Shown piece after piece: positions 4,096-41,072 of a DNA stretch of 41,072 bases (the stretch's first letter is position 1; the number at the start of each line of letters is the position of its first letter). The stretch is from Candidatus Peregrinibacteria bacterium CG2_30_44_17. Lineage in GTDB: Bacteria > Patescibacteriota > Gracilibacteria > UBA1369 > UBA12470. The DNA is taken from contig MNZJ01000023.1 in the NCBI GenBank assembly GCA_001873565.1, forward strand, positions 1 to 41,072, in the 5' to 3' direction. The notes under the pieces are model-generated. The model saw only the letters and a program-made list of their open reading frames with translations, was not told the origin of the DNA and searched no databases. The translations under genes were made by a program, and so were the position numbers.

Positions 4096-4156
4096 GTTGG
4101 TTTACTTAGTATTACTTTCGCTTATAATTGTATACTTTTGATGACTTGATGTCAAA

Positions 4157-4307
4157 TTGGGCAGGGAAGGATGACGCCTCCGCCGATGGCGGCGGCTAGG
4201 CTCCTGCGCCGCTCGGTAATCCTATGATTTTATCCTCGGAGCTCGAACCTACGGTTCTCATCCTTCCACATGAAAACTGCCCCCGAGCGTTGCTCGGAGC
4301 CATTTCC
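4157..4307 (-). repeat. tRNA-Tyr-associated repeat unit (unit B)
   Basis: Begins with tRNA-Tyr 3' T-stem/acceptor copy (TTGGGCAGGGAAGGATGACGCC), inverted repeat GGAAGGATGA (4165-4174) / TCATCCTTCC (4258-4267), core CTCCTGCGCCGCTCGGT, inter-unit hairpin. Confidence 0.85.
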
Positions 4308-4493
4308 ATGGTGGGCAGGGAAGGATGACGCCTCCCCCGCTAAGCGGGGTCGTCTTGTCCCTGCGCCGCTCGGTCATGCCAGAGTCTTCGCCTCTGTCGC
4401 GACTCTCGCTATCCTCGGGACCCGAACCCTAGGTTTCGATCCTTCCTGATCCGCATTCAAAAACAGCTCTCACCTTCGGTGGAGCTTTCTTGA
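4308..4493 (-). repeat. tRNA-Tyr-associated repeat unit (unit C)
   Basis: ATGGTGGGCAGGGAAGGATGACGCC (includes complement of CCA), inverted repeat GGAAGGAT (4319-4326) / ATCCTTCC (4439-4446), core CCTGCGCCGCTCGGTCATG and GACTCTCGCTATCCTCGGGACCCGAACCC. Confidence 0.88.
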
Positions 4494-4494
4494 A

Positions 4495-4579
4495 TGGTGG
4501 GCAGGGAAGGATTCGAACCTTCGAAGGCTGAGCCAACAGATTTACAGTCTGCCCCGTTTGACCGCTCCGGAACCTGCCC
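4495..4579 (-). tRNA. tRNA-Tyr (anticodon GTA), CCA encoded
   Basis: GGGCAGGTTCCGGAGCGGTCAAACGGGGCAGACTGTAAATCTGTTGGCTCAGCCTTCGAAGGTTCGAATCCTTCCCTGCCCACCA; class II tRNA with complete acceptor and T-arm. Confidence 0.97.
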
Positions 4580-29671: not shown

Positions 29672-29847
29672 ACCGCCAGAGAGACTGGGATGACGCTCGT
29701 TTCACTCGCTATGCTCCTGCGTCGTTCGGTAATGTCGTAACTCCGTTCCGGCATTACTCTCACTATCCTCGGGACCCGAACCCGGTTCGACCCCGTCTTC
29801 CCACGCTTCAAAACCACTCCAACCTGAAGGCTGAACTGTTTTTGAAT
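29672..29847 (-). repeat. tRNA-Ser-associated repeat unit (unit E, outermost)
   Basis: GAGAGACTGGGATGACGC (tRNA-Ser 3' T-stem/acceptor copy), core TGCTCCTGCGTCGTTCGGTAATG, CACTATCCTCGGGACCCGAACCCGG. Confidence 0.88.
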
Positions 29848-30031
29848 TGGCGGAGAGACTGGGATGACGCTTTGCTACGCAAAGCTATGCTCCTGCGTCA
29901 TGCTCGGTCATGTGCCTGCAAGCAGTCACGCGACTCTCGCATATTCCTTGAAGTAGCGAACCCTTTGGGTTCTCACCCCAATTCTACATCAGTAATAACC
30001 CCTTACCCCATGAAGGGGTGCGGGCTTATTC
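29848..30031 (-). repeat. tRNA-Ser-associated repeat unit (unit F)
   Basis: TGGCGGAGAGACTGGGATGACGC, core ATGCTCCTGCGTCATGCTCGGTCATG, CGCGACTCTCGCATATTCC, closing complement TCACCCCAA (29973-29981). Confidence 0.88.
29994..30030 (-). terminator. Hairpin terminator downstream of tRNA-Ser(TGA)
   Basis: On minus strand AATAAGCCCGCACCCCTTCATGGGGTAAGGGGTTATT inverted repeat directly 3' of the tRNA CCA. Confidence 0.7.
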
Positions 30032-30121
30032 TGGCGGAGAGACTGGGATTCGAACCCAGGAGACCCTTGCGGGTCTAACGGTTTTCAAGACCGCCGCTTT
30101 CAACCGCTCAGCCATCTCTCC
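30032..30121 (-). tRNA. tRNA-Ser (anticodon TGA), CCA encoded
   Basis: GGAGAGATGGCTGAGCGGTTGAAAGCGGCGGTCTTGAAAACCGTTAGACCCGCAAGGGTCTCCTGGGTTCGAATCCCAGTCTCTCCGCCA. Confidence 0.97.
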
Positions 30122-40660: not shown

Positions 40661-40798
40661 ATATTTGGTTCAAGTTTTATTTTGATTAGTAAATTATAAA
40701 ACAAAAGTGGCAGAAAAGCAACCCCTATGTAATAGTTCAAGGCTCATGCCCAACCCAAAAGCAATTTTTCAAAGAATCCTTTGAGGTTCTTATTATTG

Positions 40799-40850
40799 TA
40801 TCGAGCGGCTCAAGGTAGTAGCGAATTTTGCGTTCCGCAGTCGCATGGAA
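40799..40850. repeat. 52-bp direct repeat copy 1
   Basis: TATCGAGCGGCTCAAGGTAGTAGCGAATTTTGCGTTCCGCAGTCGCATGGAA; 50/52 identical to 41021-41072. Confidence 0.95.
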
Positions 40851-41020
40851 GACGAGCTCTGCGAGACTTCCAGAAGACAAAGGACGACGAGTAGTGATTT
40901 TGGCAATCATGGTGACGACAGGATAACAAAATCTCTAACGAGTTGAGCAAAATCCTATTGCAGCCACGAAGTGGCGATGCCCTAGCGAGACATCATCACC
41001 ACATAAGTTTTTTTGTTATC

Positions 41021-41072
41021 TATCGAGCGACTCAAGATAGTAGCGAATTTTGCGTTCCGCAGTCGCATGGAA
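41021..41072. repeat. 52-bp direct repeat copy 2 (continues past window end)
   Basis: TATCGAGCGACTCAAGATAGTAGCGAATTTTGCGTTCCGCAGTCGCATGGAA, 222 bp after copy 1. Confidence 0.95.

Follow-up and report, generated by a model that had tools for sequence, protein, structure and literature searches.

RtT-like non-coding units with tRNA-specific ends downstream of tRNA genes in Peregrinibacteria

Downstream of seven tRNA genes of Candidatus Peregrinibacteria bacterium CG2_30_44_17, non-coding units are found in which a common structured core is enclosed between arms copied from the 3′ end of the preceding tRNA. It appears probable, at roughly 0.6, that these units are RtT-like, tRNA-targeted elements whose ends would be re-templated from each recipient tRNA. 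The window, that is, the whole stretch of 41,072 nucleotides that was analysed, corresponds to contig C32, one of the 51 into which the 1.17-Mb genome is divided, and it carries such units behind tRNA-Ser(TGA) and tRNA-Tyr.

The gene of tRNA-Ser(TGA), the source of the copied 3′ end, lies on the minus strand at 30032-30121 (ARAGORN, Rfam RF00005) and is followed on the same strand by two tandem units, F then E. Unit F (29848-30031) opens with a hairpin read from the sequence (hairpin 1, 29994-30031), the first element after the tRNA, which abuts its CCA. Then come the left arm AGAATTGGGGTGA (29973-29985), which repeats the 3′ end of tRNA-Ser in inverted orientation, and hairpin 2, GAACCCAAAGGGTTC (29958-29972), made of inverted and sense T-arm. 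The insert (29866-29956) is a structured core comprising helix B, tandem G.A pairs, hairpin 3 and hairpin 4. It was located with R1, a covariance model built from nine units of this genome, unit F among them (match 29862-29978, E=2.8e-11). The right arm (29848-29865) corresponds to tRNA-Ser positions 59-76, the terminal ATCCCAGTCTCTCCGCCA being identical to the last 18 nt of the tRNA at 18/18 positions. In unit E (29674-29847), hairpin 1 is found at 29807-29846 and the left arm GTGGGAAGACGGGGTCGAACC at 29784-29804, its last bases being shared with hairpin 2, GAACCGGGTTC (29778-29788). The structured core follows at 29692-29777 (R1 match 29688-29793, E=9.8e-16). The right arm (29674-29691), which forms with the left arm a duplex of -17.7 kcal/mol, ends in ATCCCAGTCTCTC and then diverges, so that 13 of its 18 nt, the first ones, are tRNA-like and the CCA end is lost. 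An earlier note on this DNA had described the two units as retargeted to the serine tRNA 3′ end. This description holds, over 18/18 nt in unit F and over the first 13 of 18 in unit E, and the closing strands of both units, as well as the GTAATG/CATTAC hairpin of unit E, are as it gave them. When the window was searched with Rfam at gathering score, tRNAs were the only matches, with no group I or group II intron or other known family. In an E-value scan of the serine region, RtT (RF00391) did not match the serine units up to E=5.

Two tandem units also follow the tRNA-Tyr(GTA) gene (4495-4579, minus strand, as are all the parts below). The first comprises hairpin 1 (4456-4494), a left arm (4436-4455), an insert (4327-4423; R1 match 4323-4442, E=1.1e-17) and a right arm (4309-4326) that equals tRNA-Tyr positions 59-76 at 18/18. 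The second comprises hairpin 1 (4269-4307), a left arm (4258-4270), an insert with a short hairpin 3 (4173-4243; R1 match 4169-4263, E=1.3e-13) and a right arm (4155-4172) that retains 15/18 identities and has lost the CCA. Two other repeats of the window may be mentioned. At 1864-2088, three tandem 74-nt copies of tRNA-Thr(TGT), degenerate in their 3′ half, stand immediately 5′ of an intact tRNA-Thr. At the contig end, a 67-nt repeat, TATCGAGCG..TCAAGRTAGTAGCGAATTTTGCGTTCCGCAGTCGCATGGAA, is present in two copies (40784-40850 and 41006-41072), and a stretch similar to it lies after tRNA-Arg(CCT).

Read on the tRNA strand, the order within a unit is hairpin 1, which abuts the CCA, the left arm, a GAACC..GGTTCG hairpin, an insert ending in GCGTC, and the right arm. 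The insert, of about 70-97 nt, interrupts the T-loop of the sense copy between positions 58 and 59 and is followed by tRNA positions 59-76. A unit is therefore an inverted copy of tRNA positions 76 to ~50, a short loop, and a sense copy of positions ~50-76 that is split at 58/59 by the insert. The copy following the insert can be said to start at T-loop position 59 because this position varies among tRNAs (A, T, C or G) and the copy follows the variation. In a set of 46 units, all selected for an adjacent tRNA (at most 420 nt upstream) and representing 13 amino acids, the right arm is 93-98% identical to the adjacent tRNA at positions 59-68, and identity goes down to 62-67% at positions 74-76. 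The right arm is perfect (18/18) in 20 of the 46, and across the set the left arm reproduces the end of the adjacent tRNA in inverted form. Left arms pair with their own right arm at a mean energy of -12.85 kcal/mol, as against -8.63 kcal/mol with the arms of other units, none of 2000 permutations being as good, and a control core segment showed no own-arm preference in the same test. Several left arms, such as those at Lys and Gln-CTG, pair poorly. In three units (Ala L128, Gly L132 and Gln L093), both arms depart from the tRNA sequence by joint changes, and hence it is the helix itself that is kept. Hairpin 2 is tRNA-specific as well: the bases before its TTC fit the adjacent T-stem better than the T-stems of others (0/2000), as exemplified by GAGTTCG at tRNA-Ala(CGC). 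The tRNA specificity of the ends thus goes further than had been noted, with a left arm that is an inverted copy and an inner hairpin that also tracks the T-stem.

The 35 tRNA genes of the genome were surveyed without any model. A perfect 12/12 copy of positions 59-70 is found downstream of seven of them, always at +160 to +174 nt: Tyr, Ser(TGA), Asn, Lys(CTT), Arg(TCG), Gln(TTG) and Gln(CTG). A tandem tRNA-Met gives 10/12, and the remaining tRNAs reach at most 9/12, which is the chance level. At tRNA-Arg(CCT), an 11/12 copy of its own end occurs at +260, unlike the usual distance, and a truncated remnant of a unit was recognized by eye downstream of tRNA-Leu(TAA). The search with R1 returned the same nine units behind these seven tRNA genes, which are distributed over several contigs; beyond these, it found a single displaced copy, on contig C8. 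The survey of tRNA loci for matching ends, which the earlier note had put forward as a check, has a clear outcome: every tRNA-linked unit matches positions 59-76 of its own tRNA, and the C8 copy has no tRNA nearby on its contig. Likewise, the core pieces quoted from the serine units are present, and the family core recurs at both Tyr units and at the Asn, Lys, Arg and two Gln tRNAs. The two tRNA-Gln loci (contigs C37 and C42) have in common about 200 nt beyond the unit, and the Gln locus was therefore probably duplicated together with it.

The fold of the core is supported by covariation. In an alignment of 56 sequences (A5), the compensatory changes that the earlier note had proposed to test are strong, with a covariation score of 0.581 against 0.170 after shuffling (0/500 shuffles) and two-sided changes in 28 of 30 pairs. 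An alignment of 25 sequences (A4) gave 0.517 against 0.167. It should be kept in mind that both alignments were fitted to the structure of the model, which favours that structure. Nevertheless, RNAalifold, run on A4 with its own structure prediction, recovered helix B and the pairs flanking the tandem G.A. The stem supported by covariation is helix B, GSYCC/GGRSC, with the tandem G.A pairs beyond it. The adjacent GACGC/GCGTC stem of the earlier note, considered either as a stem or as a pseudoknot, had to be given up: family-wide it is paired in 70.4% of cases against 67.7% after shuffling, and 70 of 500 shuffles score as high.

Such covariation, together with the joint evolution of both arms in three units, is what would be expected of a cis-acting or regulatory RNA under selection, for instance a processing signal, an attenuator or a source of small RNA. 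The arms of such a functional tRNA trailer would then stay matched to the tRNA because selection preserves the closing helix or their pairing with the tRNA itself, and no mobility would be involved. This reading also draws on the known RtT RNA, which is reported to be expressed as a small RNA in E. coli and Actinobacillus, amino-acid limitation being implicated (PMC4986893). It accounts less well for units that occur patchily among tRNAs and are missing in most genomes, for exact 18/18 identity reaching the CCA end, where pairing is not required, for cores that resemble those of other tRNAs in the same genome, and for the existence of precise empty alleles. Taken as a whole, it is rather unlikely. 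The re-templated, RtT-like element remains the preferred reading, and the relationships between cores bear on it directly.

Cores cluster by genome and not by tRNA. Their similarity is 0.55 between different tRNAs of the same genome and 0.54 for the same tRNA in sister genomes; across families, it is 0.38 for the same tRNA against 0.37 for other tRNAs. In genome G002, the nearest relative of the Ser(GGA) core is the Tyr core of the same genome (0.86), and the arms differ. Because the same core stands at different tRNA genes within a lineage, it may be proposed, from this sequence pattern, that the core reaches new tRNAs and that its ends would be re-made there. The alternative of a local tandem duplication at each tRNA, with cores alike by chance or convergence, is scarcely credible. 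Local duplication does occur, since Tyr and Ser each have two tandem units, but behind seven tRNA genes, spread over several contigs, the same core is found between different ends, and covariation is significant family-wide. An independent origin of the cores is untenable because they align. The earlier note's argument that a common core with tRNA-specific ends speaks against simple local duplication is therefore upheld, cores grouping by genome.

At the DNA level, filled and empty alleles were observed. For tRNA-Val(TAC), one of two sister genomes (G422 and G447) is empty and the other is filled, the unit being inserted exactly between the CCA and the tRNA's own terminator and bounded by an 18-nt exact direct repeat. 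Since a truncated unit stands at this tRNA-Val in G319, another genome of the genus and the third to be compared, the empty allele may have arisen by precise loss. In E. coli, the lysQ locus of K-12 is filled, with a direct repeat of 54 nt, and strain 23CRST049 lacks the unit, its sequence matching the joined empty site at 220/220 bases (100%). Among E. coli strains, the RtT unit after lysQ is thus either present, as in K-12 and DH10B, or exactly absent.

From these data, the following scheme may be envisaged. The unit would be transcribed with its own tRNA and would fold into a multi-way junction whose closing helix is formed by the inverted and the sense copies of the tRNA's 3′ end. By analogy with E. 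coli rtT, tRNA-processing enzymes would then release a small RNA whose 3′ end resembles that of a tRNA. The DNA would behave as an insertion that is gained and lost, with a direct repeat of tRNA positions 59-76, or 59 to the terminator, at its bounds. Beyond loss, presumably by recombination between the direct repeats, the core would spread to new tRNAs, its ends being re-made from the recipient tRNA. Template switching at the T-arm, or a route through cDNA (reverse transcription) and gene conversion, would be the most likely way of re-making them. As to a transposition protein, the genome was searched for large serine recombinases (PF07508), and none was found.

This last result also bears on another possibility, in which the unit would be a tiny integrated element produced by a tRNA-targeting integrase, the right arm representing the displaced tRNA end (attR). 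In its favour, the tRNA 3′ end is directly repeated starting in the T-loop, a classical location for integrases, and large serine recombinase elements do occupy tRNA genes, as in genome G389, where one separates a tRNA-Ser from its unit. Yet this genome has no large serine recombinase (PF07508 being the only family searched), the insert of about 70-97 nt has a covarying fold, and no overlap is repeated where the T-loop is split, at 58/59. In addition, the repeat length varies (18 versus 54 nt), the repeat is accompanied by the tRNA end in inverted orientation, and integrase elements do not switch target with rewritten ends. This origin is accordingly regarded as quite improbable.

Relatives of the units are dispersed. 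Within the order, R1 detected units in 10 of the 89 genomes. A second model, R2, applied across the phylum, had matches in 36 of 380 genomes, which is an upper bound because many low-scoring matches lie away from tRNAs. A same-strand tRNA is found at 38 of the 107 loci fetched, the 69 others being away from tRNAs. Among the tRNA-less loci inspected, a few are displaced units, and the others resemble free-standing G.A hairpins. A pattern scan of a collection of genome contigs matched only Candidatus Peregrinibacteria RIFOXYA2_FULL_41_18. Carriage by viruses was rejected, the strict core pattern having no match among viral contigs. The units without an adjacent tRNA come after a common GTTCGNAC..GTCC stretch. 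In G389, the tRNA-Ser is ~1.2 kb upstream of the unit, with a large serine recombinase gene between them, and the right arm is still 18/18. The element responsible for this displacement lies at tRNA-Ser(GGA) (L218, C16:36000-52000), and att-like stretches similar to its own precede other displaced units. A large serine recombinase was rejected as the general mover, since it is absent from the genome studied here, although such an element explains one displaced unit, that of G389. The displaced unit of G074 matches its upstream tRNA-Asn only in part. Separately, free-standing intergenic elements with the same AAATGAGTGAGAGAAAT..ATTTCCGAGCGAATGA motif and no tRNA nearby were seen in three genomes (L148, L153, L143 and L144, in G142, G450 and G313). 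There the motif is set within variable AT-rich stems, at times several in series. Lastly, at the tRNA-Ala and tRNA-Gly of G319 (L250 and L253), the right arm is followed by one more hairpin 1 with its inverted tRNA end, but by no insert, as if the array had lost it or never had it.

RtT RNA, found in E. coli tRNA operons, is little understood, and its copy of the tRNA end has been without explanation. The four units of the K-12 tyrT/tyrV stretch have the same anatomy as those described here; the best four matches of R1 on that stretch are these very units, and R2 finds the first of them at E = 8.6e-5. Conversely, RF00391 aligns over its full length with a Peregrinibacteria unit (L088, 30.4 bits) and with Tyr unit 1 (19.6 bits), scores that are below its gathering cut-off of 45 bits. 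In K-12, the lys operon units are above this cut-off and the arg operon units below it, and the right arms of both equal positions 59-76 of their own Lys and Arg tRNAs. The lysQ unit contains GATTCGAACCTGC..GCAGGTTTGA, in which the T-arm of tRNA-Lys is present both inverted and in sense. The Peregrinibacteria units are thus RtT-like in kind, their scores falling short of formal Rfam membership. They stand directly after a tRNA, end in a copy of its last ~18-19 nt (18/18 in 20 of the 46, as in the E. coli tyrT, lys and arg units) and have a covariation-supported tandem G.A motif, a motif also noted in RtT (PMC7657543). In Actinobacillus, expressed RtT small RNAs are reported to adjoin Asn- and Lys-tRNA genes (PMC4986893), and work cited in the same paper describes release of E. 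coli RtT from the tRNA transcript and an effect on the stringent response.

It is tempting to go further and to imagine a class of protein-less mobile elements common to E. coli and Patescibacteria. A core would enter T-loop position 58/59 of a partial tRNA duplicate, both flanks, inverted and sense, would be rebuilt from the tRNA entered, and the tRNA would stay intact, RtT RNA being the enterobacterial form. This wider proposal is tentative, and we hold it to be somewhat less probable than its contrary. If the rule were general, the RtT copy of the tRNA end would make up a third of a sense-inverted-sense zig-zag of the recipient tRNA around a structured insert, common to phyla as distant as Enterobacteria and Patescibacteria. 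An odd repeat would then become a testable question, namely how a non-coding element gains ends that fit each new tRNA, and the filled and empty lysQ alleles among E. coli strains make this question workable in the laboratory.

Three known systems may finally be compared with the units. Integrative elements at tRNA 3′ ends, driven by tyrosine integrases or large serine recombinases, have in common with them direct repeats at both ends (18 nt at tRNA-Val, 54 nt at E. coli lysQ) of a tRNA 3′ sequence starting in the T-loop. The units differ in that they lack a recombinase gene, carry a short structured insert together with the tRNA end in inverted orientation, and shift from target to target with ends made anew. 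REP/BIME-type and other intergenic palindromic repeats are also short, non-coding, structured and dispersed, whereas the units are tied to tRNA genes and have gene-specific ends. RtT RNA (RF00391; rttR of the tyrT operon and the lys and arg operon units) differs in the sub-threshold score, in the fourth hairpin (hp4) that many Patescibacteria units have before the right arm and that was seen in none of the E. coli units, and in the occurrence of the present units at tRNAs of 13 amino acids in another phylum. It resembles them in its position after a tRNA, its tandem repetition and tandem G.A motif, its hairpin, its left arm complementary to the tRNA end, its GAACC..GGTTCG hairpin, its G.A-rich core and its exact copy of tRNA positions 59-76 with the CCA, and the models of the two families match each other at the same places.
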